Source: Actinomadura luteofluorescens
GTDB taxonomy: Bacteria > Actinomycetota > Actinomycetes > Streptosporangiales > Streptosporangiaceae
NCBI RefSeq assembly: GCF_013409365.1
Contig: NZ_JACCBA010000001.1
Coordinates: forward strand, 4,712,001-4,776,000
Length of the DNA stretch: 64,000 bases
Direction of reading: 5' to 3'
The position numbers and the translations under genes were made by a program. Shown here piece by piece: positions 296 to 44,003 of this stretch. The notes under the pieces are model-generated. The model was not told where the DNA came from and made no database searches. It saw only the letters and a list, made by a program, of their open reading frames with translations. Positions within the stretch are counted from its first letter, which is position 1. Every line of letters begins with the position of its first letter.

Positions 296-2248
296 TCATG
301 CGGTGAGGGCGCTGGCGAGATCGTCCAGATGGCGGGAGACCGGGCCCAGCGTGAGCAGGCCGCTCTGTGCGCCGGCGAGCTCGCCCGCGGCAGGGACGAG
401 TTCGTCATGCGCGCGCCGCATCGCCGCTTGGTCGCCCACGGCGATGGCGGCCTGCGCGGTGAGGCACCACAGGGCTTCGAACAGCAGGTCCCGCGGCGGT
501 TCCGGGACGTCCCGCAGCGCTGCGGCGGCCTCGCCCGGCGCACACCCGCGCGCCAGGAGCACCAGGGGACGAGCCCAGGGCAGGTACGGCCCCCAATCGG
601 CCGGCTCGGTCTGAGCGGGGCGCCGGTGCTGGACGCGCAGGCAGAGGAGGGCGAGCGGCAGCAAGCCGCTTTCCAGACCGGGCATGCCGCAGCCCTGCAT
701 GCGCGCCGCGGCGTCCTGGTAGGCCTTTTCCGCCTCCTCGAACGATGCCGTGCCGGACGCGGCGACCCGCAGAGCCCGGTACCAGGTCGTGAAGACGCCG
801 ACCAGAGGACGCTCGTGCCGCTCGGCCAGGCCATCGGCGGCGGCCGCATGCCGGTCGGCCCCGTCGAAGTCGCCGAGCGCACTGCGGGCCTGGAGCCGGA
901 TGAGGTGTCCGAGCACCTCGTAGCTCGACAGGTCGCCCCGCACCGCCAGGTCCACCAGCTCCGCGCCGATCCCGTCCCGCCGCGGGGCCAGCCCCGCCCG
1001 GTCGAACGCCTGCATGAACGCGCCGTTCAGCGCGAACGCCAGGAGAGCCGGATCGTCCAGCTCGCGGGCCGTCCGGACCGCGTCCCGCGCCGCCTCGCGC
1101 CCGCGGTCGCCGCGCGTGCCGCGCGACTCCAGCGCGACCGTGGCCAGCAGACGGGCCCGCGCGGCGCCGTGCCCGTGCGGCAGCCGGGCGAGGGCGCGCT
1201 CGGCCGCCGCCACCACCCCGGCCGCCTGGCGCGGATCGTCCGACCGGGTCCAGATCGCCGGGACGTCGAACGCGCCGATCACCCGGGCGGTCAGCTCCGC
1301 GTCGCCCAGCTCCTCGGCCGCCGTGATCACCGCCAGGCGCTGCTCGCGGGCCGCCTCCAGGCCCCCGGCGCCGGTCAGCGCAAGGCTCCGCAGGAGCCCG
1401 ACCGTCGACTCCAGCCGGACCCGAGCTCCGGACGCCACGGTGCGGTCGTACGCCTCGGCCGCCTGCGCCCACACACGCGAAGCCGCGTCCCGCGCGGGTT
1501 CCAGGTGATCGGCCTGGCGGAGGATGTCCTCCTCCAGGCGGCGCATAGCCGGACTCGGGTCCAGCCCCAGTTCCTCGACCAGAAGCTTGCGCGCCCTCTG
1601 GAGGACCGCCAGCGCGTCCCCCTGACGCCCGGTCCGGTACAGGGCGAGGGCCAGCAGGCGCCAAGCGTCCTCCCGCCAGGGATGGTCGGTGACATGCGCG
1701 TCCAGGTCCGGAATCGCCTCGGCGGCCAGACCCTGCGCCAGCCGCGCCTCGGCCTTCCGCTCGACGGCGCGCAGCCGCAGCTCGGCCAGCCGGGAGTGCT
1801 CCGCCCGCGCCCACGGCTCGTCGGTGAACTCGGCATAGGCGGGCCCGCGCCACCAGCCCAGCGCCTCGTCCAGCGCGGCGGCCAGCTCGGCCGGCGGGCC
1901 GTCCGACGCCACGGCCCGCTCGAAACGCCAGGCGTCCACGGCGTCGGGCCCGGCGCGCAGCGCGTAGCCCGGACCCTCGGTGACCAGCAGCCGGGGCGGC
2001 GTCCGCGGCGCACGGTCCGGTTCGAGGACGCGCCGCAGGGCCGCCACGAAGGTGCGGACGGCCCCGACCGCGTCCGACGGCGGATCGGCCCACAGATCGT
2101 CCACGATCCGGGACACCGGCACCACCCGCCCGCGCGCGACGACCAGGCGGGCGAGGACGGCACGGTGCCGCGGCCCCTTCAGGGCGATCGCGTTCCCGGA
2201 CCCGTCCCAGGCGGTCACCGGCCCCAGCACCCCGAACAGGACCTCCAC
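296..2248 (-). CDS. AfsR/SARP-type transcriptional regulator with BTAD domain
   Basis: About 650 aa. The N-terminus (about residues 1-95) is an OmpR-like winged helix opening with VEVLFGVLGPVTAW, the usual start of SARP regulators. A bacterial transcriptional activator domain follows (about 100-245, ending in LGLDPSPAMRRLEEDIL), then a roughly 400-residue Ala/Leu-rich helical C-terminus that looks TPR-like. There is no NB-ARC ATPase motif, so it is a SARP with a helical sensor rather than full AfsR. Such proteins usually activate secondary-metabolite or stress genes by binding direct repeats near the -35 region. GTG 2248 is preferred because TATACC at 2262-2257 fits a -10 box for a leaderless start; ATG 2272 is the alternative. 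It is divergent from the hydrolase at 2306. The target genes are not evident. Confidence 0.85.
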   Translation of the reverse strand: MEVLFGVLGPVTAWDGSGNAIALKGPRHRAVLARLVVARGRVVPVSRIVDDLWADPPSDAVGAVRTFVAALRRVLEPDRAPRTPPRLLVTEGPGYALRAGPDAVDAWRFERAVASDGPPAELAAALDEALGWWRGPAYAEFTDEPWARAEHSRLAELRLRAVERKAEARLAQGLAAEAIPDLDAHVTDHPWREDAWRLLALALYRTGRQGDALAVLQRARKLLVEELGLDPSPAMRRLEEDILRQADHLEPARDAASRVWAQAAEAYDRTVASGARVRLESTVGLLRSLALTGAGGLEAAREQRLAVITAAEELGDAELTARVIGAFDVPAIWTRSDDPRQAAGVVAAAERALARLPHGHGAARARLLATVALESRGTRGDRGREAARDAVRTARELDDPALLAFALNGAFMQAFDRAGLAPRRDGIGAELVDLAVRGDLSSYEVLGHLIRLQARSALGDFDGADRHAAAADGLAERHERPLVGVFTTWYRALRVAASGTASFEEAEKAYQDAAARMQGCGMPGLESGLLPLALLCLRVQHRRPAQTEPADWGPYLPWARPLVLLARGCAPGEAAAALRDVPEPPRDLLFEALWCLTAQAAIAVGDQAAMRRAHDELVPAAGELAGAQSGLLTLGPVSRHLDDLASALTA

Positions 2249-2305
2249 GCCACCACGGTATAGCGCGCTCATCGGATGCTCATCCGCGCCCGGCAGCCTG
2301 GACGC

Positions 2306-3169
2306 ATGCCAACGATCAGCGATTTCGACTACCAGCGCGTCCCCGTCGCCGAGGGCGTGACCCTCAACGCGGCGGTCGGCGGATCGGGCTCCCCGATCGT
2401 CCTGCTGCACGGCTTCCCGCAGACCCACCTGATGTGGCGGCACGTCGCCCGCGACCTCGCCGCCGACCACACGGTCATCGTCCCGGACCTGCGCGGATAC
2501 GGCGAGAGCGACAAACCGTCCGACGGCTACTCCAAGCGGACCATGGCCGCCGACACCGTCGCCCTCGCCCGCGCCCTCGGCCACGACCGCTTCGCCCTCG
2601 CCGGCCACGACCGCGGCGCGCTCGTCGCGTTCCGCGCCGGCCTCGACCATCCCGGCACGATCACCCACCTGGCCTGCCTGGACGTCCTGCCGACCCTGGA
2701 CATGTGGGACGTCATGCACGGCGCGTCGGCCGCCGTCGGCTTCCACCTGTACCTGATGGCGCAGCCGCCCGGCCTCCCCGAGCAGCTGATCGCCGGGGCC
2801 TCGGACGCCTTCTTCGGCCACTTCCTCGACGCGTGGACGAACGACCCGTCCGCGATCCCGCCCGACGTCCGCGCCGCCTACCTGGAGGCGTGCCGTGCCG
2901 CCGTCCCGTCGATCGTCGCGGACTACCGCGCGTCCGCCGGCGTCGACGTCGACCACGACAAGGCCGACCGCGCCGCGGGCAACCGCCTGCGCATGCCCGT
3001 CACCGTCCTGCAGCAGGACTGGGGCGCGGCCCTCGGCTATGACGCCGTCGCGCTGTGGGGTTCCTGGGCGGCCGACCTCCAGCATGAGACCGTCACGTGC
3101 GGCCACTTCATGGCGGAGGAGGCACCAGCGGAGGTGGCGAAATCCCTCAGGGCGCTCCTGGACCGCTAG
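2306..3169 (+). CDS. Alpha/beta hydrolase, haloacetate dehalogenase-like
   Basis: 287 aa. Motifs in order: oxyanion-hole HGFPQTHLMW, DLRGYGESDKP, the nucleophile elbow GHDRGA, and a C-terminal catalytic His in TCGHFMAEE. An Asp nucleophile inside GHDRG is typical of haloalkane/haloacetate dehalogenases and soluble epoxide hydrolases rather than of Ser esterases, so hydrolysis of a carbon-halogen or epoxide bond is the best guess; the natural substrate is unknown. It is cytoplasmic, with no signal peptide. ATG 2306 is preferred over ATG 2276 because the conserved region begins soon after it. It is transcribed divergently from the SARP gene across a gap of about 57 bp, so the SARP may control it, although SARPs more often act on larger clusters. 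Confidence 0.85.
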   Translation: MPTISDFDYQRVPVAEGVTLNAAVGGSGSPIVLLHGFPQTHLMWRHVARDLAADHTVIVPDLRGYGESDKPSDGYSKRTMAADTVALARALGHDRFALAGHDRGALVAFRAGLDHPGTITHLACLDVLPTLDMWDVMHGASAAVGFHLYLMAQPPGLPEQLIAGASDAFFGHFLDAWTNDPSAIPPDVRAAYLEACRAAVPSIVADYRASAGVDVDHDKADRAAGNRLRMPVTVLQQDWGAALGYDAVALWGSWAADLQHETVTCGHFMAEEAPAEVAKSLRALLDR

Positions 3170-3194
3170 GGGACGCGGGGGCGGCCCCCTGCGG

Positions 3195-3323
3195 CTACCA
3201 GAAGGGAGGGCCGCCCTGCGTCGCCGCCCACACCCACACGTAGATGATGAAACCGGTCGCGACCAGCCCCACCAGGAGTTCCCAGTTGGGCGGCGACGCG
3301 CTCCGTCCACGCCTGCGGTTCAT
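3195..3323 (-). CDS. Small single-span membrane protein (42 aa)
   Basis: The ORF starts MNRRRGRSASPPNWE and then has one hydrophobic stretch, LLVGLVATGFIIYVWVWA, ending TQGGPPFW. A positively charged, Arg-rich N-terminus before a single transmembrane helix predicts an N-in topology. It lies between the hydrolase and the amidase and is not part of either. I do not recognise a family. The regular architecture, an ATG start and the clean fit to an otherwise empty 230-bp gap support its being real; the ribosome site is weak (GGACG at about -11). Confidence 0.55.
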   Translation of the reverse strand: MNRRRGRSASPPNWELLVGLVATGFIIYVWVWAATQGGPPFW

Positions 3324-3405: not shown

Positions 3406-4206
3406 TCAGCGAAGGTAGTTCTCGAAGCCCTCCGCCAGGGACTCGGCCATCAGCTGCCTGAACGCGGCACTGGACATCCTGGCCGCGTCACCCGCGTTCT
3501 TCATGTTCCCGCATTCGATGAACACGGCCGGCACCGTGGACATGTTCAGCCCACCGAGGTCGTCCCGCCGGTCGAGGCCGTCCTTGCCGAGGTAGCCGGC
3601 GTAGGGCATGCCGGTCCCCGACCGGTAGGCGTCACGGATCGCCTCTCCCAGCCGGGCGGAGGGTGCGACGATCCCCCTGTTCCTGCCCACCGGCAGGGGC
3701 AGGATGACGTGGAACCCGTGCTTGGACGCCGCCGCCCCGTCGCCGTGGATCGACAGAGCCGCGTCGGCGTGCGCGCGGTTCCCGATCGCCGCCCGCTCCG
3801 TGACGCACGGCCCCACGCCGGAGTCGCCGCCGCGCGTCAACGTCACCTCGGCGCCCCTGGCCCGCAGCATCTTCGCCAGCCGGTTCGAGACGTCCCAGGT
3901 GAAGGCGTGCTCGGCGTAGCCGTCCGCGGTGGCGGTGCCGGCCGTGTTGCAGGCCTTGCGGCCGTTCCCGACCCAGACCGGCTTGTTGATCACTTCCGGA
4001 TGGGCCGCGTTCCCGCCGTTGTGCCCGGGATCGATCACGATCACCTTGCCGCTGAGCCGTCCTGCCCCGGCGGAACCGACGCTTCGCGCGGCCGGTGGCT
4101 CGCTGCCCGCGGCCGACGCATGGCAGGCGACCAGCCCCAGGCAGGCCAGACCAGCGATCACGGGCTTCCTGGCGAGCTTTGCTCTCCCTCGGCTTCGGCC
4201 TTCCAC
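3406..4206 (-). CDS. N-acetylmuramoyl-L-alanine amidase (Amidase_3), probable lipoprotein
   Basis: 266 aa from GTG 4206. A basic N-region and hydrophobic core end in the lipobox LVAC (about residue 28), so the mature protein is probably lipid-anchored outside the membrane. The catalytic domain shows the Amidase_3 zinc and active-site motifs in order: VIDPGHNGGN, VTLTRGGD, ALSIHGDGA and VFIECGNMKN (His, His and the catalytic Glu). The enzyme cleaves the bond between MurNAc and L-Ala of peptidoglycan stem peptides during cell-wall remodelling. No ATG is available near the signal sequence; GTG 4206 gives a sensible basic N-region but lacks a clear ribosome site, so the start is uncertain. It is codirectional with and downstream of the secreted lipase, separated by a hairpin. 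Confidence 0.85.
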   Translation of the reverse strand: MEGRSRGRAKLARKPVIAGLACLGLVACHASAAGSEPPAARSVGSAGAGRLSGKVIVIDPGHNGGNAAHPEVINKPVWVGNGRKACNTAGTATADGYAEHAFTWDVSNRLAKMLRARGAEVTLTRGGDSGVGPCVTERAAIGNRAHADAALSIHGDGAAASKHGFHVILPLPVGRNRGIVAPSARLGEAIRDAYRSGTGMPYAGYLGKDGLDRRDDLGGLNMSTVPAVFIECGNMKNAGDAARMSSAAFRQLMAESLAEGFENYLR

Positions 4207-4244
4207 CCCGGATTTGTGCGCCGGCCTCCGCGCAGCTAAACGGA

Positions 4245-4273
4245 ACGGGCGGGAGGTCGTCCCTCCCGCCCGT
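4245..4273 (-). terminator. Hairpin between lipase and amidase genes
   Basis: A perfect 12-bp stem ACGGGCGGGAGG/CCTCCCGCCCGT (4245-4256 with 4262-4273) with a 5-base loop lies 17 bases downstream of the lipase stop on the minus strand. The longest T tract (4273-4276) is on the plus side; on the minus side the tail is GTTCCGTTT, so termination is probable but not textbook. Confidence 0.6.
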
Positions 4274-4289
4274 TTTGCCCAGCGTCGGA

Positions 4290-4961
4290 TCAGCTCTTCG
4301 TGAACTGGGCGATCGCGCCGAGGACCACCGTGTCGGCCAGGTAGCCGATGTGGGTCTGGCACACGACGTTGTGGTTGCTCGCGCCGTCCAGCCGCGTGCT
4401 GGTGTAAGGGATGATGATGCCGTCGCACGCCGAGTACCAGGTGGCGTACTGCGTGCTGCCGGGCGTCTCGTCCCCCGCGCTGATCTGCTGGATGAACGTC
4501 GACCCGGGCAGCATCTGCCGGCACGTCTCGTAGATCGTGCAGGCGGTGGCGTAGGTCGTCCCATGGTTGGCGCCCGCGATCGACGCCAGGTGCGCGACGT
4601 TCGGGTTCCCGTTCAGCACCTTCAGGTAGTACTGGCTGACCAGGCCGCCCATGGAGTGGTTGACGATGTCGACCTGCGAGGCGCCGGTCCGCGACTTCAC
4701 CTGGTTCACGTACGACGCGAGCCCCGCCGCGTTCTGCTTGTTGTCGCCGTAGGAGTTGTACTCGTAGGCGAACAACTGGTCGCTGCTGTAGCCCGCGGCA
4801 CGGAACACCGCCATGGCGGTGACCCAGTTGGACGCGTTGCCGGTGTACCCGTGCACGAACACCACGGGCCGCGGCCCTGCCGCCTGCGCCGGCGCGAGGC
4901 CGACTCCGAACGCCGCCAGCGCCGCGAACAACGCGACGAGGGAACCGAGAACCCTTCTCAT
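4290..4961 (-). CDS. Secreted triacylglycerol lipase / esterase
   Basis: 223 aa. A classic Sec signal peptide (MRRVLGSLVALFAALAAFG, cleavage after about AQA) precedes the alpha/beta-hydrolase motif PVVFVHGYTGN (oxyanion region) and the nucleophile elbow NHSMGGL, with an Asp and a His (SNHNVVC) later in the chain. The size and motifs fit the small secreted lipases of the Bacillus LipA/Streptomyces EstA type, which hydrolyse ester lipids outside the cell. Several Cys (CTIYETCRQ, SACDG, VVCQ) suggest disulfides. ATG 4961 follows a strong GGAGG site with 5-base spacing; the open frame continues upstream but that part lacks homology. It is followed by a hairpin and the amidase gene, so both products act on the envelope or exterior. 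Confidence 0.88.
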   Translation of the reverse strand: MRRVLGSLVALFAALAAFGVGLAPAQAAGPRPVVFVHGYTGNASNWVTAMAVFRAAGYSSDQLFAYEYNSYGDNKQNAAGLASYVNQVKSRTGASQVDIVNHSMGGLVSQYYLKVLNGNPNVAHLASIAGANHGTTYATACTIYETCRQMLPGSTFIQQISAGDETPGSTQYATWYSACDGIIIPYTSTRLDGASNHNVVCQTHIGYLADTVVLGAIAQFTKS

Positions 4962-5285
4962 GGAACCTCCAGGGGTGGGACAGCCAACGCCCCGGAGTCT
5001 GACCCGCGCCGTCCAGGCGGGCATCGGCGAAATCACCGGCCTTCGTCCGCACGACACCGATCACCGTCGCGGGACCTCGCCGTCCCGCCGTCAGCGCTTG
5101 CCGGTGCCTTCCCCGGGGAACCCCTGTGACCAGGCCAGGGTCGACCACTGACCCCCTCCAGGGCTCGTCCGTCGACAGTGGACGTGAAACCGGAGGGAGG
5201 CCCGTCCGGGCAGGCACACGGCGCCCGGAAGCCCTGGCAATCGCGGCCCTCAAGACCATCCCGTACACGCACGAAAGGCAGTCGC
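4962..5285. other. Intergenic region, divergent promoters presumed
   Basis: 324 bases between the divergent lipase and NAD-binding protein genes. I see no convincing coding sequence, RNA gene or repeat; both promoters should lie here. Confidence 0.5.
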
Positions 5286-6696: not shown

Positions 6697-7578
6697 TCAT
6701 GCGGCCCGGGCAGGGGAGCGGAACACCTCACGGGAGTGCCACGCGATGTGCTGGTCTTCCACATCAGGGAAGGCCCTCTGCGGCGTGCTGATCGGGCGTC
6801 CAGCCAAAGCGTGAACCTGATGGCGGGCGGCCGGACCGCGCCCAACGAAGTGCACCGACACGGTGACCCTCCGGTCGTCGTTTATGCCGAGCGCGCCCTT
6901 GTCGAAAAGCTTGTGATGCAGCGCGCACAGGCAGATGCCGTTGGTGACATCGTCGGGCCCGTCGAAAGCCCACCACCGGACATGCGCGGCGTCCAGCCCG
7001 ACCGCGGTCCCGCTCAACCACCCGTCATAGCCGCAGAACGCGCACTGGTACTCATAGGCGACCATGACTTGCTCGCGGAAGGCACGGTCACGCCGCCGCG
7101 GGACCACCACCCCCGCGACCTCGCCCGACTCCAGGTCGATCCCGGCAGCCGCGCAAATGTCGTCGTGCAGCGAGGGTTCGAAGTTGACGTCCAGGATGGC
7201 GCGGCACAGTTGCGGGAGCAGCCGCGGGTCCTGACGCAACGCAGCCGCCAACTCACCACTCAGCTGCCCGCGTGCAGCCTGAGAACGCAGGACACCGACA
7301 TGGGGCCCAGGACTGGAACCGCCGTCAGCGGTCCGCACCTCCCACAAACCGTCGCTGGTCAGATAATGGAAGGGATAGGCGGGACTGGTCTTCCGGGGCG
7401 GCCCGAACTCCCGCAACAGCCCGGCGAGATGCTCCTCAACCTCGCTGTAGAACATCGGCGCCTCGCCGCACCTCTGAAAGTGCCCAAGCGCATACAGCAA
7501 CAGCAGCGGCTTATGCGGCGCCCGCTCCCCGCCCCGCGACCACCGGCGGACCCCCGTAACCCGCTCAACCCAATCCAC
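6697..7578 (-). CDS. Phosphorothioated-DNA-binding HNH restriction endonuclease (SBD-HNH, ScoMcrA/SprMcrA-like)
   Basis: 293 aa. The N-terminal half (about 15-150) has the sulfur-binding-domain pattern APHKPLLLLYALG (20-32), RKTSPAYPFHYL (62-73) and DGLWEV. The C-terminal half is an HNH nuclease: CAFCG (179-183), LDAAH (195-199), an Asn in the VTNGICLC segment (211-218) and HH (221-222), all key residues present. Known members of this type IV family (ScoMcrA of Streptomyces coelicolor, the shorter SprMcrA) bind DNA whose backbone carries a Dnd-type phosphorothioate and cut nearby. The length matches the short SBD-HNH class, without an SRA domain. The gene stands alone about 2.1 kb outside the element that carries dndABCDE, an unexpected pairing because the enzyme should attack self DNA modified by Dnd. 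Binding specificity cannot be read from sequence by eye. Confidence 0.85.
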   Translation of the reverse strand: MDWVERVTGVRRWSRGGERAPHKPLLLLYALGHFQRCGEAPMFYSEVEEHLAGLLREFGPPRKTSPAYPFHYLTSDGLWEVRTADGGSSPGPHVGVLRSQAARGQLSGELAAALRQDPRLLPQLCRAILDVNFEPSLHDDICAAAGIDLESGEVAGVVVPRRRDRAFREQVMVAYEYQCAFCGYDGWLSGTAVGLDAAHVRWWAFDGPDDVTNGICLCALHHKLFDKGALGINDDRRVTVSVHFVGRGPAARHQVHALAGRPISTPQRAFPDVEDQHIAWHSREVFRSPARAA

Positions 7579-7791: not shown

Positions 7792-8670
7792 TCAGGCAAG
7801 GAAGAAACGCGCGGCGGCCTCAGCGGGCGTGATCGCTTGGCGACGTCCAGGAACATCGTAAACGTTCATTGCACCTTCGGACCGGAGCTGGTCGGCACTG
7901 GCGTCCCGGGCCATGACGGCGGCGTAGGCACGCACCTCCGCAGCGGTGAGATCCGTACGGCCTCGTTCCGTGTACTGCTGAAGTAGACCGGTCACGTCCG
8001 GGTCGAATCGCAGCATGGTCACCGGGACGTTGAAGCGCCTGGCAATGGCGATGAGTCGCGCCCGTGCCTGTGGTGTGACGTTAGTCGACTCGGCGACCAC
8101 GGTGCGTCCCGCGGAGAGCCTGGCAACGATCCTGCGGTCACGTGTCTCGAAGATCAGTGCGTCCGCCGCATCTGATTCAGCCTCCATCGGTGAGGTCCCG
8201 AAAAGCTCTGCGCGGATCGCATCGCTGGACACCACGGCTTCGGCATCGATCTGCCGACGCTCGATCAGTGCCCGGACGAAGCTGGTCTTGTCCGAGGCAG
8301 GTGGACCAACGAGGACAACGAGTCCTGCCGGCACCCGGATGACCGGCGCCAGAGCACTGAGGTAAAGGTCGCCTGCGCAGTCCAGAGCTTCTTCCGGGGA
8401 CCCAACGGGCAGGCCGCCGGGCAGGATTTGATCACGATAGACCTCGCTGCCGGCCAGGTACAGAGCGAAGCCCCAGGTGTGCAGACCGCCGTCATATCGC
8501 AGCCGGCATAGCGGCAGCCTCTTTCTGCCGGGCAACTCGGCTGCCACATAAGCGAATCCCCGGCGGATCTGGACCGTGATGGCGTCCACGTGAGGCCAGC
8601 GCTCAAGCGCATGGCGGTTCAGGCGCTGGCGCAGGCGGAACTGCATCGATTCCGGCGGATTCTTTGGCAC
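7792..8670 (-). CDS. AAA/polynucleotide kinase-like ATPase with atypical P-loop
   Basis: 292 aa from GTG 8670 (ribosome site GGATGGGG). The C-terminal half resembles polynucleotide kinase/zeta-toxin-type P-loop kinases: VVLVGPPASDKTSFVRAL, VVSSDAIRAELFG, then TVVAESTNVTPQARARLIAIA and an Arg-rich lid. The P-loop reads GPPASDKT, where GxxxxGKT is usual, so the Gly before Lys is Asp. The N-terminal 130 residues (IRRGFAYVAAELPGRKRLPLCRLRYDG and LYLAGSEVYRDQILPGG) form a separate domain I do not recognise, with a hydrophobic, Arg/Tyr-rich character. The open frame continues 456 bases upstream, but that part lacks coding character. The substrate could be RNA/DNA ends or a small molecule; the family is secure, the function is not. 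Confidence 0.75.
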   Translation of the reverse strand: MPKNPPESMQFRLRQRLNRHALERWPHVDAITVQIRRGFAYVAAELPGRKRLPLCRLRYDGGLHTWGFALYLAGSEVYRDQILPGGLPVGSPEEALDCAGDLYLSALAPVIRVPAGLVVLVGPPASDKTSFVRALIERRQIDAEAVVSSDAIRAELFGTSPMEAESDAADALIFETRDRRIVARLSAGRTVVAESTNVTPQARARLIAIARRFNVPVTMLRFDPDVTGLLQQYTERGRTDLTAAEVRAYAAVMARDASADQLRSEGAMNVYDVPGRRQAITPAEAAARFFLA

Positions 8671-8971
8671 GGCCCCATCCTGCCGGTGCCCCGACACCCG
8701 CCGTGATCGTGGCCACGAGGATGAACGAGCGACGGGAAGCCCGAGGCGCGCCCAGCGACCGCGCCCACAGCAGCCAACCTGCGACCCCCTCCTGAAGTGT
8801 CCAGCGTCCGCCCCGCCGGCCCAACACTCTTCAACCGAAACAGGAAGATGCGCGCGGGAGACGCTAGTAAACACAGGACGAGGCAAGGTCACACTGCCCA
8901 CACCACACGCACACAAACGAAGAATGCGTGCAGCCCGCATCACCTCACACCCGCTGCCTGGGCGTCCGACC
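8671..8971. other. Intergenic region without visible genes
   Basis: About 300 bases between the kinase-like gene and the acetyltransferase gene; no coding frame with sensible composition, RNA gene or repeat was seen. Confidence 0.4.
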
Positions 8972-9445
8972 TCAGCTGAGATCCTCGGCGAGCAGATCCA
9001 TGAGTAGGCCGTCCTGCCACAGACCCGTACGGTGGTCCAGCCAGTACGCTCGCATGACCCCCACGGGCTGGAACCCGACCTTGCGGTAACTGCGAATCGC
9101 AGCCGCGTTGGCCGCAGCGGGATCAATGACCAGCCGGTGATGCCCGCGCTCGCGCACCAGCCACCGGGCCAGCGTGCGCACAGCGTCGGTACCGAGTCCC
9201 TTCCCGTGAAGCCGCGCCGTCAAGAAGATGTCGATCCCAGCGTGGCGGTACTCCGTCTTGGTCTCCTCGTGGAACTGGATCGCTCCAACGACTTCCCCCT
9301 CGACGACAACGGCGAGCATGCGCTCGTAACTCTCCGGAGGCGACCACCACGCCGCGACTTCCGGCTCCCGAACGATCCTGTCGAGAACCTCACCATCACC
9401 GCGTGCCACGGGCCGCAACAAGACCTTGTCCCCGCGTAGCTCCAT
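8972..9445 (-). CDS. GNAT-family N-acetyltransferase, AAC(6')-like
   Basis: 157 aa from ATG 9445 (MELRGDKVLLRPVARGDGE). It shows the GNAT acetyl-CoA fold: IDIFLTARLHGKGLGTDAVR matches motif A (Q/RxxGxG/A, here HGKGLG) and NAAAIRSYRKVGFQPVGVM matches motif B. The early LRPV..D...L and the WWSPPESYE segment resemble aminoglycoside 6'-N-acetyltransferases and related small-molecule acetylases, but resistance cannot be concluded from this. Upstream in-frame starts exist (9454, 9457, GTG 9475); 9445 was chosen because the family alignment starts there. It is the last chromosomal gene before the left end of the integrated element. Confidence 0.82.
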   Translation of the reverse strand: MELRGDKVLLRPVARGDGEVLDRIVREPEVAAWWSPPESYERMLAVVVEGEVVGAIQFHEETKTEYRHAGIDIFLTARLHGKGLGTDAVRTLARWLVRERGHHRLVIDPAAANAAAIRSYRKVGFQPVGVMRAYWLDHRTGLWQDGLLMDLLAEDLS

Positions 9446-9679: not shown

Positions 9680-9722
9680 CAATATCTGACGGCCTAGAAA
9701 CTCTCCCGGGTAAATCGAATCT

Positions 9723-9748
9723 GAACCCGCGGCCTCTTCGTCCCGAAC
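9723..9748. repeat. Left attachment-site repeat (tRNA-Pro fragment)
   Basis: The 26 bases at 9723-9748 match 24 of 26 bases of tRNA-Pro positions 44021-44046, including 16 identical bases in a row (9733-9748 and 44031-44046). The copy lies 162 bases before the integrase gene and has the same orientation as the tRNA copy, as expected for a direct repeat flanking an element inserted into a tRNA 3' half. To its left the tRNA likeness fades (GAATCTGAACCC against GATTTGAACCC), consistent with decay of a displaced tRNA end. Confidence 0.7.
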
Positions 9749-9909: not shown

Positions 9910-11253
9910 GTGGGATACGCGAAGAAGCGCAAAGGCAACAACGGAAAGTACCGCTACACGGCCTGCTACGTCGACATCAAGGGCCGCCTGCGGTCAGCCG
10001 GGACATACTCCAACAAAAGAGAAGCCGACAAGGCATGGCAGCGAGCCGAGGTGGAGGTCTCCAGAGGCCGAACCGGCGATCCAGGCCGCGGAAAGCAGCG
10101 GTTCAAGGATTACGTCGAGCAGGTCTGGCTCCCGAACCACGAGGTCGAGGCCACCACCCGTGAGGGCTACACGTACGCGATCTACAAGCACATCATGCCG
10201 ACGTTCGGCTCGATGCGGATGATCGACATCCTCCCCGAGCACGTCCGCGCGTGGATCACGGCCCTGAAGAACCAGGGCATGAAGCCCGTGACCATCCGCT
10301 ACAACAAGATCATCCTCAGCGCCATCTTCACCACGGCGATGGACGACCAGGTCACCTTCCTCCACCCCTGCCGCGGCGTCCGCACGCCCCCAGTCGTCCG
10401 CAAGCCCCTCGAGATCATCACGCCCGAGCAGTTCAACGACGTCTACAACGCCCTCCCCGAAGGCACCTTCCGCCTCCTCGCCGAAACCGAGGTCGAGAGC
10501 GGCCTCCGCTGGGGCGAACTCAGCGAGCTGCGCGTGAAGGACATCAACCTCAGAACCCGCATCCTCACGGTCAGCCGCACCGTCGTCGAGCTGAACCCGC
10601 AGTTCCACCCGGAAGGCCGCCACTTCCTCGTCAAGGACTACCCGAAGGACAAGGAGTACCGCCGCTTCAAGCTCAGCGTCCAGATCACCGAGAAGCTCGA
10701 GGACCACATCCGAACCGCCAACCTGACCCGGGACGACCTCCTCTTCCAGATGCCGCCCCAGGACAAGCCCCGAGCCCGCATCACCGAGATCCCAGACCCG
10801 AAGACACTCGGCCGCACCGAACCCAACGAGAAGGGCCGCACCTACAATCACGGAACCCTCAGCGGCTACACCGCCGGCCGCTGCCGCTGCGACTACTGCC
10901 GAGGCGCCTTCTCCCTCTACCGAGCCGCCCGCCGCGCGAAAGGCAAGGACAACCCGCGCCCCCGCCGCGTCCGAGAGACCGACGGCCACATCCCCAACGA
11001 CTGGTTCCGCCGCAACATCTGGAACCCCGCCCTGGCCGCCGCTGGCCTCAACTTCAAACCCACCATGCGCGACCTACGCCACGCCCACGCCTCCTGGCTC
11101 CTGAACGGCGGCGCCGACCTCCAGGTGGTAAAGGAACGCCTAGGCCACGCCTCCATCGCCACAACCGAGCGCTACCTACACACCCTCCCTGACGCCGACG
11201 AAACCGCCCTGGAGGCCCTCGCTAGGACCCGGCGTCGGGCCGACAATCGATAG
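9910..11253 (+). CDS. int: Tyrosine-family site-specific integrase
   Basis: 447 aa. An N-terminal AP2-like arm-binding region (YRYTACYVDIKGRLRSAGTY), a SAM-like core-binding domain (about 66-155) and a C-terminal catalytic domain are present. Catalytic residues: Arg200 in ESGLRWGEL, the box II segment RDLRHAHASWLL (387-398, Arg where the first His is usual), GHASIATTERYLH with Tyr422 as nucleophile. It recombines attP with the tRNA-Pro attachment site. A roughly 60-residue insert (about 290-355) lies before box II and contains CRCDYC (325-330), possibly a small zinc knuckle. GTG 9910 has GGGGAG upstream. A perfect 11-bp-stem terminator follows at 11276. No excisionase gene is directly next to it; the candidate is at 25994. 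Confidence 0.9.
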   Translation: MGYAKKRKGNNGKYRYTACYVDIKGRLRSAGTYSNKREADKAWQRAEVEVSRGRTGDPGRGKQRFKDYVEQVWLPNHEVEATTREGYTYAIYKHIMPTFGSMRMIDILPEHVRAWITALKNQGMKPVTIRYNKIILSAIFTTAMDDQVTFLHPCRGVRTPPVVRKPLEIITPEQFNDVYNALPEGTFRLLAETEVESGLRWGELSELRVKDINLRTRILTVSRTVVELNPQFHPEGRHFLVKDYPKDKEYRRFKLSVQITEKLEDHIRTANLTRDDLLFQMPPQDKPRARITEIPDPKTLGRTEPNEKGRTYNHGTLSGYTAGRCRCDYCRGAFSLYRAARRAKGKDNPRPRRVRETDGHIPNDWFRRNIWNPALAAAGLNFKPTMRDLRHAHASWLLNGGADLQVVKERLGHASIATTERYLHTLPDADETALEALARTRRRADNR

Positions 11254-15259: not shown

Positions 15260-16765
15260 TCAGCGGTAGGACCATGCATGGCCGGTTCCGCGGTAGTCCT
15301 CGACAGGGATCGGGTGGACGCCCTCGCGCATCCGGTCGGTGTAGAGATGCCCGTACAGGTGGTCGATTTCGTGCCCGGTCAAGCGAGCGAGTGCAGCGTT
15401 CAGGACGACGACCACCGACCGCCCGTCCAGACGAGTATGAGCGACTTCCAGCCGGAGCGGACGGGGCACCAGGCCGCGCACATCGAAGAAGCTGAGGCAA
15501 CCCTCGTATTGCTCGTCGGTCTCGGAAGACGCGTTGATCACACGGGGGTTGAGCAGCACGAGCGGCTCGGCGTCGGGATCCGGTGGGGCGATGACGGCGG
15601 CGGCGCGCTCGATGCCTATCTGTGGGGCGGCCAGCCCCATGCCCTTGCCGAACACGTGATGCTCACGGACTCGCTGCATCGCGGCGAACAACCGGTCGAT
15701 GACATCCCTGGCCTCAGCGGCTTCGGCGGGCAGCTCGAACGGGCGGGCGGTCGCGGCCAGGATCGGTTCGCCATGCTGGACGATGCCAGCCGCTTTCATA
15801 CGATCGCTTGCGGTGCGTAGTTCGAGACGTGGCTGGTCGGCATCGTCGTCGCGGGCGCGGAACCGCCATTCCAACCGGTAGCGAGCGCCCATCGGCGGGT
15901 CCTGGGTGGCCCACGAGAACATCAGCCGATCCCCGTCCACGGTGCGGGTGATGGGGGTGCGCAGGGGGACGGCTTCGGCGGTGGTGGAGGTCTCGGTGCC
16001 CCATACCACCGGGTCCAGTTCGGCGGGGAACACTAGCTCGACCGACAGGCGACGTGTAGGTAGGCGGACGGCGCGCTGGAACCAGGGGCCCCATCGCCCG
16101 TCGTCGACCTGGTAGCCATACTCGATGGTCGAGTGCTGACCGGGGTAGAGCGGGAAGCGCCCGCGGTCGTTGTCCAGGCACAGCCACGCCTCTTTGAACG
16201 AGTCGCGATCTTGCTTGGGGCGCCATTTCATGGGTTCGCCATCGCAGGACGCGCTCAGTGCGAGTTCATCCCAGGTGAGCGGCCGGGCCCGATACAAGGC
16301 ATTGGACTGGTCGGGACGGCCGGGGTAGCGGTCGACGCTAATGCGGATCAGGTAGCGGGTAACAGGTTCAGCACCGCCGTTGAACAGCCGACGCCGCTGC
16401 ATCGGCCGGTACGTCGTCCCGTCGTATTCCAACCGGGCATGGTCCTCCTCCACGACCAGGCCCTCGACGTTGCTTGCGCCAGCGCTGGTGCTGGCGGCTC
16501 GGGTCGGCCCGTCGGCTCGCCACGCCTGCCACAAGGAACCATCCGCGCTGAGCACGCCATCGGCCTTACGGGCGAAGTCCTCACTGGCTGGATGGCGTCC
16601 AGCCTCAACATGGCTGACGTAGGACGGGTCGAAGCCCATCGCCGCCGCCAATTTCTTCTTCGACATCGCGCGGTGTTCGCGCCACCAGGTCAAAGCCTCG
16701 CCGAACGGAGGCGTCCCCTCGGCGGAGGCGGTCGCTGGATCATCGGCGGAGTGCTGAACGCCCAT
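15260..16765 (-). CDS. XRE-type HTH - peptide deformylase fusion protein
   Basis: 501 aa. Residues about 20-75 form an XRE helix-turn-helix (MSKKKLAAAMGFDPSYVSHV). A middle region (about 100-320) is beta-rich with many Trp/Arg and no family I can name. The C-terminus is a peptide deformylase with all three active-site motifs: GMGLAAPQ (375-382), EGCLS (421-425) and HEIDH (465-469). Canonical deformylases are about 170-200 aa and remove the formyl group from nascent peptides; here the catalytic domain is attached to a DNA-binding domain. Possible roles are a formyl-peptide-sensing regulator, a spare deformylase giving tolerance to deformylase inhibitors, or a hydrolase for another formamide. 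It is divergent from the oxidoreductase/aminotransferase operon and upstream of a NUDIX gene. Domain calls are firm; the role is unknown. Confidence 0.85.
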   Translation of the reverse strand: MGVQHSADDPATASAEGTPPFGEALTWWREHRAMSKKKLAAAMGFDPSYVSHVEAGRHPASEDFARKADGVLSADGSLWQAWRADGPTRAASTSAGASNVEGLVVEEDHARLEYDGTTYRPMQRRRLFNGGAEPVTRYLIRISVDRYPGRPDQSNALYRARPLTWDELALSASCDGEPMKWRPKQDRDSFKEAWLCLDNDRGRFPLYPGQHSTIEYGYQVDDGRWGPWFQRAVRLPTRRLSVELVFPAELDPVVWGTETSTTAEAVPLRTPITRTVDGDRLMFSWATQDPPMGARYRLEWRFRARDDDADQPRLELRTASDRMKAAGIVQHGEPILAATARPFELPAEAAEARDVIDRLFAAMQRVREHHVFGKGMGLAAPQIGIERAAAVIAPPDPDAEPLVLLNPRVINASSETDEQYEGCLSFFDVRGLVPRPLRLEVAHTRLDGRSVVVVLNAALARLTGHEIDHLYGHLYTDRMREGVHPIPVEDYRGTGHAWSYR

Positions 16766-16892
16766 GTCCTAATCATCTCTTCAATCCAGGCTGAGCGAAT
16801 GAATGAACCGTGAATGAGGTCCCGTCAGCGTGGCCTCACAGACCGTATCGAGGGTTACCTCCCTGGTGACGACAACCTCGAGGAGGCTCTCG

Positions 16893-17987
16893 ATGACTCG
16901 CTTGGCTCCCCCCGACTCGCCAGTCGCCGATCAGGGTTGGCGGCTCCTGATCGTCGGCGCCGGTCAGCGCACCGTTGATGTGCTGCTGCCGGCGCTGCAC
17001 CGGGCCATGCCGACCGCGCGGGTCACAGCTATCTGTGATCCCGATCCCGCCGTCGCCGTCCGGATCGCGGGGCTGACACAAGCAGGGCGGCTGGTCGATG
17101 ACGTCTCGGTGTTCGCCGAGCTGGACCGAGCTCTGGCCGCAGGCCCGTACCAGGTCGCGATCCTGGCCTGTCCGCACGACCTGCACCAAGAGGCGACGCT
17201 ACGGCTGACCGACGCGCACATCGCGGTGTGGAAGGAGAAGCCCTACGCCCTCACGCTTCAGCAGGCCGCTCAGCTGGCACCCCGCAATGTGCGAGTGCTG
17301 GCGCATCGTCCACACTTGCAGCTGCTGCAGATCGCTACCGACCGGATGGCGGCCTGGGGACGGCTGCTGTCGTACCGAATCCGGATCACCCGTCCTACCG
17401 GCGACTACACCGGTACTTGGCGCGCCTCGGCTGAACGCGCGGGCGGTGGCGCCATCTGCGACCTGGGCTACCACGCCTTCGACCTGATCAGCCGCCTCAC
17501 CGGAGGGCCCTCCGCGCGACCGGCCACCGTATACGCGGTCACCACCGGCTCCCCGGTGCATCGGCCCGCCGTTGAGGTGGAGGAGAGCGCCCACCTGACC
17601 ATCACTCACGTCGACGGATGCGCAGGCACCGTGCACCTGTCGCGCTGCGAAGAGCGCGCCGACGAGATCGACCTGGTCACTGAGCAAGGACGCATCACGA
17701 TCTCGGGCGACCAGTCGGTGCTTCGCATCACCACTCCGGCCGGACGAACCCACCATGCCGAGGTAACAGCCGCCGACGACGATCCGTGGGCGGCGATGCT
17801 GTGCCACCACGCCCAGACCCTCGGCGACACAGCGGTCACCGCTGCCGAGGCCCGCATCGGCATCGCTGCGACCGCACTGATGGAGGCGGCCTACACCTCG
17901 GTGCGGCTGGGTCGTCCCGCCCATGTGGCCTCCTGCGCCGGCGCTGCTCCGGTGACCGTCCCCACCCTGGAAGGGCGCGCATCATGA
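16893..17987 (+). CDS. Gfo/Idh/MocA-family oxidoreductase
   Basis: 364 aa. The N-terminal Rossmann domain opens LLIVGAGQRTVDVLLPAL and contains the EKP motif (WKEKPYAL, Lys116), which positions the catalytic Lys in this family. The C-terminal alpha/beta domain has CDLGYHAFDLISRLTGGPSA, with the conserved DxxxH (Gly-Tyr-His) arrangement. These enzymes oxidise or reduce hydroxyl/keto groups of sugars or inositols with NAD(P). ATG 16893 has AGGAGG with 6-base spacing; upstream in-frame codons are not conserved. The stop overlaps the next start (ATGA). Paired with a DegT/StrS aminotransferase it suggests oxidation followed by transamination of a sugar or cyclitol, as in kanosamine (NtdC/NtdA) or 2,3-diamino-sugar pathways; the substrate is not predictable here. 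Confidence 0.86.
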   Translation: MTRLAPPDSPVADQGWRLLIVGAGQRTVDVLLPALHRAMPTARVTAICDPDPAVAVRIAGLTQAGRLVDDVSVFAELDRALAAGPYQVAILACPHDLHQEATLRLTDAHIAVWKEKPYALTLQQAAQLAPRNVRVLAHRPHLQLLQIATDRMAAWGRLLSYRIRITRPTGDYTGTWRASAERAGGGAICDLGYHAFDLISRLTGGPSARPATVYAVTTGSPVHRPAVEVEESAHLTITHVDGCAGTVHLSRCEERADEIDLVTEQGRITISGDQSVLRITTPAGRTHHAEVTAADDDPWAAMLCHHAQTLGDTAVTAAEARIGIAATALMEAAYTSVRLGRPAHVASCAGAAPVTVPTLEGRAS

Positions 17988-19201
17988 CATCCACGTGGCC
18001 ACCCATCGACGCCGAGGTCTCCGCCGCGGTCACCCGGCAACTGCACACGACCGTTTCCATCTACGACCGGTCAGGGATCATCGCCCGGTTCGAGGACGCG
18101 TTCGCCACCCGCCACAACGCCTCGCATGCGTTGCTGACCTCATCAGGCACCGCCGCGCTGCATTCGGCCTACTACGCGCTCGGCCTTGGCCCGGGCGACG
18201 AGGCGATCGTGCAGGACTACACCTTCTTCGCCACCGCAACCCCACTGCTCCAACTGGGTGCCGTGCCGGTCCTGGCCGACGTCGACATCCACGGCGAACT
18301 CGACCTTGGACGCGCGGCCGAACTGCTCACGGACCGCACCAAAGCCGTGGTCATCACGCACATGTGGGGCAACCCACAGAACGCCCGCCGGCTGCGGGAC
18401 TGGTGCGATGCGCGCGGGCTGGCGCTGGTGGAGGACTGCTCCCACGCCCACGGCGCCACCCGCGACGGCGTCAGCGTCGGCGAACTCGCTGACGCCGCCT
18501 GCTGGAGCCTTCAGGGCCGCAAGACCATCACCGCAGGCGAGGGCGGCATCCTGACTACCCCGCACCGCGAGGTCTACGAAAAGGCGACACTCCTTGGACA
18601 CTTCAACAAACGTGCCCTGGCCGAGGTGAGGACCGAGTCGCCGCTGTACCGGTTCGCCGAGACCGGACTCGGACTCAAATACCGGGCGCATCCCCTCGGG
18701 CTGGCGATGGCGGAGGTCTACCTGCGACGCCTGGACGACTGGCTACTCGCTCGCCAAAGCCACGCCGCCCGTCTGGAGAATTTCCTGGCCGGACGAGTTG
18801 GCATCAGCGTGCTCACCCCGACAGGCCCCGACCGAACCGCTACCTTCTACGCCTTCGTGTTCACCATCGACCCACACGCTGCCGGGTTCTCCCGCGAGGA
18901 TCTTCTCCGCGCTCTCCGGCAGTGCGGATACGGCGAGATCAGCACCTGCGACGCGATGCGGCCGCTGCACACCTACCCCGTCTTCGCCGCGCCCAGATCA
19001 CCGGTCACCGTCTACAAGACGTCATGTCTCCGCTGCGAACCGCACGTCGCCGAACGCCTGGCCGCCACCTCGTTACGGATCAACGTTCCCGCCGACGACG
19101 GACCGGCCGGACACGCCTTCATCGACACCGCGATCAACATCCTCGACCGAGCCCTCAACGCCCTCGCCGCGCCGCCTGGCCGGACTACCCTGCCAGCGTG
19201 A
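17984..19201 (+). CDS. DegT/DnrJ/EryC1/StrS-type PLP aminotransferase
   Basis: 405 aa. Motifs: TSSGTAALHSAYYALG (PLP phosphate region), QDYTFFATATPLLQLGAVPV, VEDCSHAHGA with Asp151 contacting the pyridine nitrogen, and SLQGRKTITAGEGG with Lys180 as the likely Schiff-base lysine. Family members transfer an amino group from Glu or Gln to keto-sugars or cyclitol ketones. The start overlaps the oxidoreductase stop (ATGA) and the stop overlaps the NUDIX start (GTGA), so this is a tightly coupled three-gene operon. No nucleotidyltransferase or glycosyltransferase is nearby, so this is not a full amino-sugar pathway; the product may be made from a host intermediate. Confidence 0.87.
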   Translation: MTSTWPPIDAEVSAAVTRQLHTTVSIYDRSGIIARFEDAFATRHNASHALLTSSGTAALHSAYYALGLGPGDEAIVQDYTFFATATPLLQLGAVPVLADVDIHGELDLGRAAELLTDRTKAVVITHMWGNPQNARRLRDWCDARGLALVEDCSHAHGATRDGVSVGELADAACWSLQGRKTITAGEGGILTTPHREVYEKATLLGHFNKRALAEVRTESPLYRFAETGLGLKYRAHPLGLAMAEVYLRRLDDWLLARQSHAARLENFLAGRVGISVLTPTGPDRTATFYAFVFTIDPHAAGFSREDLLRALRQCGYGEISTCDAMRPLHTYPVFAAPRSPVTVYKTSCLRCEPHVAERLAATSLRINVPADDGPAGHAFIDTAINILDRALNALAAPPGRTTLPA

Positions 19202-19698
19202 CCACCGCATCCGGGCTCGACATCCAGCGACTCCACGCCGACGCCGACCACGACGGCATCACCAAACTCGTGGTCGGCGCCATCGTTCATGCCGATGACC
19301 AGGTGCTCATCCTGCGCCGCTCCGCTGAGGACACGTTCATGGCCGGCATCGAAGAACTTCCTTCAGGCGGCGTCGAGTCAGGCGAGAACCTGCTCACCGC
19401 ACTGGAGCGCGAACTCGCTGAGGAAATTGGCTGGACCGGACAACTCGTCCTCGATCCCGGCTTCGTTACTCACTTCGACTACACCTCTGGATCCGGTCGC
19501 AAAGCTCGCCAGTACACGTTCGGCGTGCCCCACCACGGCCAGTCCATCGTTCTGAGCACCGAGCACACCGCCTATCGATGGCTCCGCCCCGCCGACCTGA
19601 ACGACTCCGACGTCACTGAAGAGACCGCTCGAGCAATCCTAGAGTGGACCGCCTCATGCCCCTGGCAGCAAAGCAGCACGAAAGTCCGGCGAGATTGA
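19198..19698 (+). CDS. NUDIX hydrolase
   Basis: 166 aa from GTG 19198, overlapping the aminotransferase stop. A complete Nudix box is visible: GGVESGENLLTALERELAEE plus IGW. Before it lies VVGAIVHADDQVLILRRSAED, typical of the NUDIX beta strand, and after it FVTHFDYTSGSGRKARQYTFGV. Such enzymes hydrolyse X-linked nucleoside diphosphates; with the two upstream genes, a nucleotide-sugar or the release of a sugar phosphate would make sense. It is the second NUDIX in this cluster; the first (14787-15253) is frameshifted. Substrate unknown. Confidence 0.83.
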   Translation: MTTASGLDIQRLHADADHDGITKLVVGAIVHADDQVLILRRSAEDTFMAGIEELPSGGVESGENLLTALERELAEEIGWTGQLVLDPGFVTHFDYTSGSGRKARQYTFGVPHHGQSIVLSTEHTAYRWLRPADLNDSDVTEETARAILEWTASCPWQQSSTKVRRD

Positions 19699-23345: not shown

Positions 23346-23678
23346 ATGAGGTTCCGAGTCAGCGACCAGGAGTACATGGAAATCTGCGCGGCGGCCCAGC
23401 AAGCGGGAGCCGCCTATGGAACGTTCATCGTCCACACACTACAGGCAGCCACTCGCCAGCGCGGATTGGGGCAGCAACCGACTGCAGAACTCTGCGAAGA
23501 ATTGCGTGGCATCGCACGACAGTTAAACCGCATCGGTGTGAACCTCAATCAACTGGCGCGCATAGCGAACGCGACAGGGCAGTTGCCTTGTGAACTGCCG
23601 GCCGCTCTGTCGTATCTGGAGAACGTGCTCCGCAGAGTGGACGCCTCGTCCGTTGAGATCGGTCGGCTCCTGCGGTGA
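23346..23678 (+). CDS. mobC: Mobilisation relaxosome accessory protein MobC
   Basis: 110 aa as written. RFRVSDQEYMEICAAAQQAG is the ribbon-helix-helix-like N-terminus and LNRIGVNLNQLARIANATGQ is the conserved C-terminal MobC motif. MobC helps melt DNA at oriT and loads the relaxase. The same frame stays open upstream to 23163 and encodes an Arg-rich stretch (RKLQRRSQLGGGRRRDRE) like the N-terminal tails of other MobC proteins, but it has no ATG, GTG or TTG; the true start may be non-standard or lost. The stop overlaps the relaxase start (GTGA). Confidence 0.82.
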   Translation: MRFRVSDQEYMEICAAAQQAGAAYGTFIVHTLQAATRQRGLGQQPTAELCEELRGIARQLNRIGVNLNQLARIANATGQLPCELPAALSYLENVLRRVDASSVEIGRLLR

Positions 23679-25210
23679 TCGGCAAAGTCACCCGCGGCCA
23701 AGGACTGCCGAGGCTGCTGTCCTACCTCTACGGCCCCGGCCGCCGTAACGAGCACGTAGATCCTCACATGGTCGCGGGGTTTCGTCTCCCCATGGCCCTC
23801 GAGCCTGGCCTCGATGCCAGAGGCGATCGAGACTTCCGCCACTTGGTCGGTGTCCTGAACTCCCCGTTCGACACGCTCCGACACACGCCGCTGCCCCTGC
23901 CGATCTGGCAGTGCTCGATTCGGGCGGCCCCTACAGACCGAACCCTGTCAGACGATGAATGGGCCGACATCGCCGAAGAGGTGATGCACCAGACCGGATT
24001 TGCGCGCCGTGGCGACGACCAGGCATGCCGCTGGATCGCAGTACGGCACGCCGACGACCACATCCACCTCGCTGTCGTCCTGGCCCGCGAGGACGGACGC
24101 AACCCTAACGTCCACCGCGACTACTACAAGGTTGCCGACGCCTGCCGCATCGTCGAGGAACGCTACGGCCTCATCCGAACCGCGCCTGCCGACCGAACAG
24201 CCGCACCTCGACCGACCCGAGCCGAGACAGAACTCGCCCATCGCAAGAACTGGCTGGAGCCACCTCGCACCACCCTCCGCCGGCACGTAGCCACCGCAGC
24301 CGCCGGAGCCGAAACCGAAGACGACTTCTTTGCCGCCCTCGAAGATGCTGGAGTGCTGGTCAAGACCCGTGAGAGCACCCGCACTCCTGGAGAGGTCACC
24401 GGTTACGCAGTCGCACTTCCACACCACGCCAACCAAGAAGGCCAACCAGTCTGGTTCTCCGGAGGAAGACTCGCCGCCAACCTCACCCTCCCCAAGCTTC
24501 GCCACCGCTGGTCGTCCCAACACGGAGGTAACTCCTTCGAGCGGCGCTTCAACAGAGGGGAGTTGACTGCGCAAGAACGGACGGCGGTCTACCAGGACGC
24601 TGCCCGAGCCGCCGCCACAGCCACGTGGCAGATGCGCCACATCCAAGACCCGGTTGTCCGCGCCGATATCGCGGCTGCAGCCGCCGACGTCCTCCACGTA
24701 TCTGCGGCCATCACCGGTAACCGAGGACTCACGGCGGCTGCCGACTTCTACGACCGTGCTGCTCGCGAACCCTATGGCCGCCAGCCACTCGTCACTCCCT
24801 ACGGTGCGAACCTTCGCACGGTTGCGCGAGCACTGGCCCTCTCCGAGATCCAAAGACGACGCGGTCACCGCCCGAACTTCACCGGCAACCTGTTCCATCT
24901 CATCCTGCACCTGGCAGCCTTGATCGAAGCCATCGCAGAATTCCGGCAGCTACAGCGACGTGCCGCTCAGGCAGCCGCCGCTCGAAAGGCTGCCGCTCAG
25001 CTCACGAGCCTCAGCCGGCCAACACCCCAGCCCCGGCTCGCGACGTTGTCAAGGACGCAGCCGGACCTCATGGCAGAGCAGGACGTTGCGCGTCTCGCCG
25101 CTCTCGGCTTCCCGGCACCTCTCAGCAGCCATCAGATGAATGCCCATCAGTACCAATCCGTCCGACCCGAGAAGCTGCACGACTCGCACCGCCGTCGTCC
25201 ATCGCGGTAG
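23675..25210 (+). CDS. Relaxase, MobA/VirD2 (MOBP-like) type
   Basis: 511 aa. The N-terminal nuclease domain has the metal-binding motif III HADDHIHL (125-132) within WIAVRHADDHIHLAVVLARE and an early Tyr region (LLSYLYGPGRRNEH) for the nucleophile. The C-terminal 300 residues are helical and basic. It nicks the transferred strand at oriT and leads it into the recipient. GTG 23675 overlaps the mobC stop, so the two are coupled. No coupling protein or type IV secretion gene is found in the window, so transfer would depend on a helper. The gene looks intact. Confidence 0.87.
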   Translation: MIGKVTRGQGLPRLLSYLYGPGRRNEHVDPHMVAGFRLPMALEPGLDARGDRDFRHLVGVLNSPFDTLRHTPLPLPIWQCSIRAAPTDRTLSDDEWADIAEEVMHQTGFARRGDDQACRWIAVRHADDHIHLAVVLAREDGRNPNVHRDYYKVADACRIVEERYGLIRTAPADRTAAPRPTRAETELAHRKNWLEPPRTTLRRHVATAAAGAETEDDFFAALEDAGVLVKTRESTRTPGEVTGYAVALPHHANQEGQPVWFSGGRLAANLTLPKLRHRWSSQHGGNSFERRFNRGELTAQERTAVYQDAARAAATATWQMRHIQDPVVRADIAAAAADVLHVSAAITGNRGLTAAADFYDRAAREPYGRQPLVTPYGANLRTVARALALSEIQRRRGHRPNFTGNLFHLILHLAALIEAIAEFRQLQRRAAQAAAARKAAAQLTSLSRPTPQPRLATLSRTQPDLMAEQDVARLAALGFPAPLSSHQMNAHQYQSVRPEKLHDSHRRRPSR

Positions 25211-26203: not shown

Positions 26204-26218
26204 ACATGGGTCGGTTCG

Positions 26219-26248
26219 GGCCCCGCTGGGCGTTCGCCGAGCGGGGCC
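26219..26248 (+). terminator. Hairpin after the excisionase-like gene
   Basis: GGCCCCGCT/AGCGGGGCC (26219-26227 with 26240-26248) encloses an inner GGCG/CGCC stem. No T-run follows. Its position argues that the next gene starts at 26263 or 26302 rather than at ATG 26206. Confidence 0.5.
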
Positions 26249-43986: not shown

Positions 43987-44003
43987 TGACCTGCACCTTT
44001 GTG

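Follow-up and report, generated by a model that had tools for sequence, protein, structure and literature searches.

The window, here meaning the whole stretch of 64,000 nucleotides of Actinomadura luteofluorescens that was analysed, contains a predicted phosphorothioate (PT)-dependent nuclease gene of the SBD-HNH kind, followed by a 34.3 kb element that carries a dnd cluster and is bounded by a repeat and a tRNA-Pro gene. The features used below are as follows.

296-3310, minus strand: BTAD-domain regulator, a conserved left neighbour in sister genomes
3406-5268, minus strand: N-acetylmuramoyl-L-alanine amidase, a conserved left neighbour in sister genomes
6697-7578, minus strand: predicted SBD-HNH PT-dependent restriction endonuclease (NCBIfam NF045808), 293 aa, GTG start
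7792-9126, minus strand: AAA_33 kinase-like gene between the nuclease and the element edge; a TTG-started frame whose true start may lie further in
9719-9748: left att-like repeat, 27/30 identical to the copy in tRNA-Pro
9910-11253, plus strand: tyrosine integrase
23675-25210, plus strand: MobA/VirD2-type relaxase
26206-27753, plus strand: TIGR04096 phosphorothioation-associated putative methyltransferase
27741-28892, minus strand: dndA, cysteine desulfurase
28963-30102, plus strand: dndB
30099-31622, plus strand: dndC
31609-33603, plus strand: dndD
33593-33970, plus strand: dndE, 125 aa
36723-38912, plus strand: PbeA-like PLD/DEAD helicase, candidate restriction partner (PADLOC PbeA 763.7 bits; TIGR04095 536.7 bits, under the cut-off of 600)
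39110-41203, plus strand: PbeC-like (DndD-related) ABC ATPase
44003-44077, minus strand: tRNA-Pro(cgg), probable integration site, with the right repeat copy inside it (44017-44046)

The nuclease reading frame has no internal stops and scored 342.1 bits against the model NF045808, 'phosphorothioated DNA-binding restriction endonuclease' (cut-off 180), which places it in this family. HNH_2 was the sole Pfam match (45.5 bits), and no SAD/SRA domain was found between the SBD and HNH parts. Among solved SBDs, the sequence matched those of SprMcrA (7cc9, 7ccd, 7ccj) and ScoMcrA (5zmm, 5zmo, 5zmn), and the nearest of the homologs listed were from A. luteofluorescens (97%) and A. coerulea (89-91%). 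The single 9.62-Mb contig of the genome (G000) gave one match to the nuclease protein; a second full-length SBD-HNH was considered and rejected, as the other search added a match to the HNH part at 29.5 bits.

Residues H22, K23, Y68 and P69 of the nuclease aligned with the sulfur-pocket residues H116, R117, Y164 and P165 of ScoMcrA, and Y72 aligned with ScoMcrA A168. R117 of ScoMcrA is a lysine in most homologs, and the HR/HK and YP pairs have been described as relatively conserved (PMC6224610, PMC7461809). All four pocket residues were invariant in 34 sequences picked among 120 listed homologs, so loss of the binding pocket was rejected. The initial annotation had named such a loss as grounds for refuting its reading, and by alignment the reading is not refuted. 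In the same 34 picked sequences, C179, C182, H199, N213, C218, H221 and H222 of the HNH region were also invariant; the catalytic residues presumably lie among these. In the AlphaFold2 model the SBD half was mostly confident (blocks of residues 1-120 with pLDDT 80-96, one block at 62) and the HNH half poor. A Foldseek search with this model gave the SprMcrA SBD/PT-DNA complexes as top matches (E 9e-8), and the ScoMcrA SBD 5zmo was matched with a TM-score of 0.78 to the target. These matches support a sulfur-binding domain fold. Overall, the assignment to a family that cuts PT-modified DNA, proposed in the initial annotation, was confirmed by the family score and the kept pocket and HNH motif, and the gene is best read as a putative resident type IV restriction enzyme, a new example of a known SBD-HNH kind.

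The same annotation had described an element starting 2.1 kb from the nuclease with a complete dndABCDE, which was borne out: dndA to dndE are all present and match their family models over nearly the full length, making up a DndABCDE set. Its remark that both genes look intact likewise agrees with the full-length dnd genes and with a nuclease that has no internal stop and keeps its pocket and HNH motif. PT-dependent cutting by the nuclease, and activity of the nuclease and dnd loci, are what we infer from this. Those 2.1 kb reach no further than the element edge; between the nuclease and the closest dnd gene, dndA, there are 20 kb. The nuclease is outside the repeat-bounded element and is not encoded in the Dnd locus. 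With three mismatches in 30 between the two repeats, the precise point of crossover is unproved. Given the relaxase, the element is probably mobilisable.

Absent from the initial annotation is a candidate restriction pair that the element brings itself, the PbeA-like helicase and the PbeC-like ATPase. The stretch from dndE to the PbeA-like gene contains a transposase frame with a partial DDE_Tnp_1 match (35667-36440), which possibly separates the restriction pair from the modification operon. In two genus genomes with the closest DndC (L075, L076), PbeA/PbeC-like genes are found upstream of dnd rather than downstream, and are only ~34-40% identical to those of the window; the upstream place and low identity suggest that the restriction pair may be exchanged separately. 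The element also includes a fusion of helix-turn-helix and peptide deformylase domains (15260-16765) and cargo at 16830-19698 with oxidoreductase, DegT-type aminotransferase and NUDIX genes.

The order of arrival was assessed from four genomes of the same genus (G008, G027, G007 and G051), in which nuclease orthologs 88-90% identical were found near the same amidase and BTAD genes. Genes between amidase and nuclease, scanned in three sisters, were of ordinary kinds (regulators, transporter, hydrolase). A tRNA search of the stretches at nine sister loci found none, and the site was later located through the right flank of tRNA-Pro, which was found in all four genomes at 94-96% identity. The nuclease and tRNA-Pro share a contig in G008 (separation ~35 kb) and in G027 (~49 kb), are near opposite ends of one contig in G007 and are on separate contigs in G051. 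In G008 and G027, an integrase ~84% identical to that of the window lies between the two, with best repeat copies near it of 24/30 and 26/30. None of the four sisters had a DndC ortholog. The G051 match, at 24% identity and 22 bits, was rejected as a second Dnd system; this frame precedes a frame judged by eye to be ParB-like. The sister synteny, the flanking integrases and the lack of a DndC ortholog in the four sisters indicate a recurrent integration hotspot at which the nuclease is resident and dnd a later arrival. Of the initial suggestion that the nuclease was a barrier which the element overcame, the order of arrival alone is upheld, the nuclease being older and the sisters without a DndC ortholog. 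Separately, G051 has an exact 46-base copy of the tRNA-Pro end at C28:13220-13265, 83 kb from the tRNA-Pro flank (C28:96616), which suggests that this genome has a further large element inserted at this site.

To place the pairing in a wider frame, the nuclease and dndC were counted in a GTDB family sample of 341 genomes, with the nuclease counted only above the NF045808 cut-off; matches below it were left uncounted (in the genus, for example, 53 of 65 genomes gave a match of some kind and 25 exceeded the cut-off). Of 25 DndC matches the weak one of G051 was dropped, leaving 24. The nuclease was present in 102/341 genomes and dndC in 24/341, with both in 10, compared with an expectation of 7.18 (two-sided Fisher test, p 0.25; one-sided for depletion, 0.93; these statistics ignore descent). 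The nuclease was also present in 92 of the 317 genomes without dndC. Both genes were present in G000, G033, G072, G097, G180, G235, G251, G261, G291 and G325, a set spanning several genera which includes G000, the reason for the search, and G097, kept although its dndC is in two pieces (9/23 without it).

A sample of 246 genomes of the genus of G424, taken as Streptomyces since a match in its genome G737 agrees in position, frame and E-value with one in Streptomyces sp. Ru62, gave a similar picture, with the nuclease in 77, strong DndC in 9 (10 matches, the weak one of G667 dropped) and both in 2, where 2.8 were expected. The pooled Mantel-Haenszel odds ratio for the family and Streptomyces, again ignoring descent, was 1.34 (p 0.43). 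Among the best 80 of 340 dndC loci were 25 Streptomyces, of which 5 had the nuclease where the genus sample predicts 7.8 (p 0.36), a slight lean in the opposite direction; the 25 share members with that sample and hence are not independent of it. The thin class-wide sample had the nuclease in 16/296 and dndC in 5/296, with both in G000 and G180. The pairing is about as frequent as chance, which does not fit strong exclusion, though a slight avoidance might escape these counts, none of which allows for descent.

Nine of the ten co-occurring nucleases keep the H-K and Y-P pocket pairs and the HNH residues. The exception, G325 (L109), carries arginine in place of K23 and of H199, and alanine in place of P69. 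In the 93 other rows, H22 was kept in 87, K23 in 88, Y68 in 83 and P69 in 90, some of the rest being gaps; for this count the second copies of G079, G271, G326 and G327 were left out and the second copy of G094 was included. The nuclease and dnd were within ~20 kb of each other in two of the ten genomes, G000 and G291, were on one contig with nuclease and dndC ~2 Mb apart in G235 and G325, and were on different contigs in the six others. In G291, taken as Spongiactinospora gelatinilytica, 17 kb of a single contig separate the nuclease from dndC, and Pbe-like genes follow beyond dnd. A type IIG restriction-methyltransferase-like frame (L101, 10742-11743) stands beside the SBD-HNH gene there, and the contig resembles a defence island.

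In a search from the dnd side, covering up to 10 kb each side of the best 80 of 340 dndC loci, the nuclease profile was matched at L248 (193.8 bits) and L244 (76.5 bits), and at L215 in the HNH part alone. So few SBD-HNH matches at dndC loci are in line with the 'less than 3.6%' given by Lutz 2020 (PMC7461809). The SBD-HNH-like genes of L248 and L244, within ~10 kb of dndC, are in MAGs labelled Verrucomicrobia and Verrucomicrobiales. Three dnd-bearing Streptomyces (L254, L255, L263) have a second SBD-HNH subtype with MPF instead of YPF at the pocket. The identity of DndC was of no use as a guide to the PT motif, as the co-occurring DndCs, 66-100% identical to that of the window, were mixed among the others.

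Pairwise dN/dS of the nuclease was 0.096-0.128 for four close pairs with G000, 0.116-0.157 for pairs among those four and 0.166-0.233 for pairs with the more distant G038. On these values, decay of the nuclease was rejected. The gene is under ordinary purifying selection and relaxation was not seen, although the time since insertion may be too short. The initial annotation had presented the two loci as a natural conflict, which predicted mutual avoidance or decay, and neither was seen (both genes in 10 of 24 dndC genomes vs 7.2 expected in the family and in 2 of 9 vs 2.8 in Streptomyces; pocket kept in 9/10).

Of the three alternatives that it offered (differing recognition sequences, one silent system, or a barrier that was overcome), we infer that differing recognition sequences are the likeliest. 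The SBD at the N terminus would hold the phosphorothioate sulfur of DNA entering the cell, and the HNH domain would cut nearby. The nuclease would have been at the edge of the tRNA-Pro hotspot first, and a probably mobilisable element would then have brought dndABCDE and the PbeA/PbeC-like pair. The nuclease would not act productively on the local Dnd pattern, most likely through differing sequence contexts, and the two loci would be neighbours via the integration hotspot and not one system. That the resident nuclease and the dnd island coexist because their target contexts differ, and are adjacent because of a shared hotspot, has in our judgement about an even chance of being right. The reservation comes from the predicted reader itself. 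In SprMcrA, R73 (equivalent to ScoMcrA E156) affects relaxation of the reader and H102-G103-D104 contacts the bases; when ScoMcrA was mutated to a basic residue at this loop-34 position, binding to further contexts rose (PMC7470945). SprMcrA R73 aligned with K63 of the nuclease, so by the ScoMcrA mutants the basic K63 in loop 34 points to a broad reader, for which the local motif is a likelier target. An easy mismatch is thereby made less credible, and for this reason the explanation is held no more firmly. The reported failure of ScoMcrA to coexist with the S. lividans dnd cluster (PMC3009677) also counts against it. The base-reading loop was placed less surely, with H102 on H93 in the single-sequence alignment and G103 on column 93 in the profile alignment. 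Ranked by entropy among 291 columns (92 family rows), site 63 was 12th and site 93 was 21st, and pocket residues Y68 and P69 were 234th and 259th. Variability at sites 63 and 93 fits diversification of context, but is equally expected of many exposed loops and is no proof of altered specificity.

Alternatively, the contexts may be the same and one system quiet, with DndB repression, low PT occupancy or scant nuclease expression making self-cutting tolerable. We consider this rather unlikely. In its favour, the element includes dndB, whose product has been characterised as a negative regulator (PMC7461809), the same source suggests low activity under tight regulation for the co-located SBD-HNH Bsp48385I, and the basic loop 34 (K63) points in the same direction. 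Against it, both loci look intact and the nuclease is under purifying selection, with silence since the arrival of the island still compatible with both. Recent conflict, in which the element has just arrived, the pair is unstable and one side is to be lost, would explain why the four sisters showed no DndC ortholog, and has a precedent in the precise loss of the dnd island when sco4631 was expressed in S. lividans (PMC3009677). It is very unlikely here, given that co-occurrence is not below chance and extends over several genera, and that repeats differing at 3/30 places do not mark an obviously fresh insertion, though they may never have been identical.

A further reading is functional partnership, with the SBD-HNH protein reading Dnd-written PT marks as a restriction or suicide component. 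Roles of this sort are proposed by Rakesh 2024, who counts 698 taxa whose Dnd locus encodes a wHTH(SBD)+SAD+HNH protein (PMC10853773), and the two genomes with nuclease and dnd within ~20 kb (G000, G291) could be read in this way. Partnership is nevertheless quite unlikely: the nuclease has no SRA match and is outside an element with its own candidate restriction pair, the 92 of 317 family genomes without dndC have it all the same, and the best 80 of 340 dndC loci yielded SBD-HNH matches at two, a third being in the HNH part alone. The preferred reading remains that of differing contexts, that is, probably two defences tolerating each other rather than an active conflict.

Among known systems, the nuclease is like SprMcrA of Streptomyces pristinaespiralis in its SBD-HNH layout, SBD fold and Y-P pocket pair and in a basic residue at the loop-34 switch site. 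It differs in having 22% identity in the Foldseek SBD alignment, H-K in place of Y31-Q32 in the pocket, no base-reading H-G-D motif kept as such, and H as the last residue of an HNH motif reported as H-N-R in SprMcrA. The sulfur pocket aligns with that of ScoMcrA (SBD-SRA-HNH, Streptomyces coelicolor), but the nuclease has no SRA match, is basic in loop 34 where ScoMcrA is acidic, and lives alongside a dnd cluster in one genome, a combination reported as impossible for ScoMcrA. Liu 2010 found that sco4631 (ScoMcrA) and the S. lividans dnd genes cannot coexist in one host, S. lividans given sco4631 having lost the whole island (PMC3009677). The SBD+SAD+HNH nucleases in Dnd loci, regarded by Rakesh 2024 as likely partners (PMC10853773), also join a PT reader to HNH in a Dnd neighbourhood, whereas the present nuclease is without SAD/SRA and is encoded beyond the element boundary, at 20 kb from dnd. 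A further PT-sensing partner, DndI, protects by sparing PT DNA (PMC11662687). The element itself resembles Dnd systems with HKD/SF2-helicase or Pbe-type restriction genes in carrying dndABCDE and PbeA-/PbeC-like genes together, but differs in the transposase gene between dndE and the PbeA-like gene.

The question of coexistence was already posed in print in 2020, when Lutz 2020 stated that PT-cutting and PT-writing should not share a genome unless the contexts differ and offered explanations similar to ours (PMC7461809); the near-chance co-occurrence sharpens it. Among the papers listed in the literature searches, no study testing a natural SBD-HNH/Dnd pair with mapped motifs came up, and a search combining Actinomadura and phosphorothioation found no paper. 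The family offers ten natural reader/writer pairs, nine with a kept pocket and one from a genome assembled as a single contig, where less than 30 kb takes in both loci. With these ten genomes, context discrimination by PT readers becomes testable in natural rather than engineered pairs. It is doubtful that the SBD-HNH subfamily varies its context at the loop-34 and base-reading sites and is compatible as a class with resident Dnd systems. If true, PT-writing and PT-cutting would form an open, context-coded market in actinomycetes, with cells stacking both.
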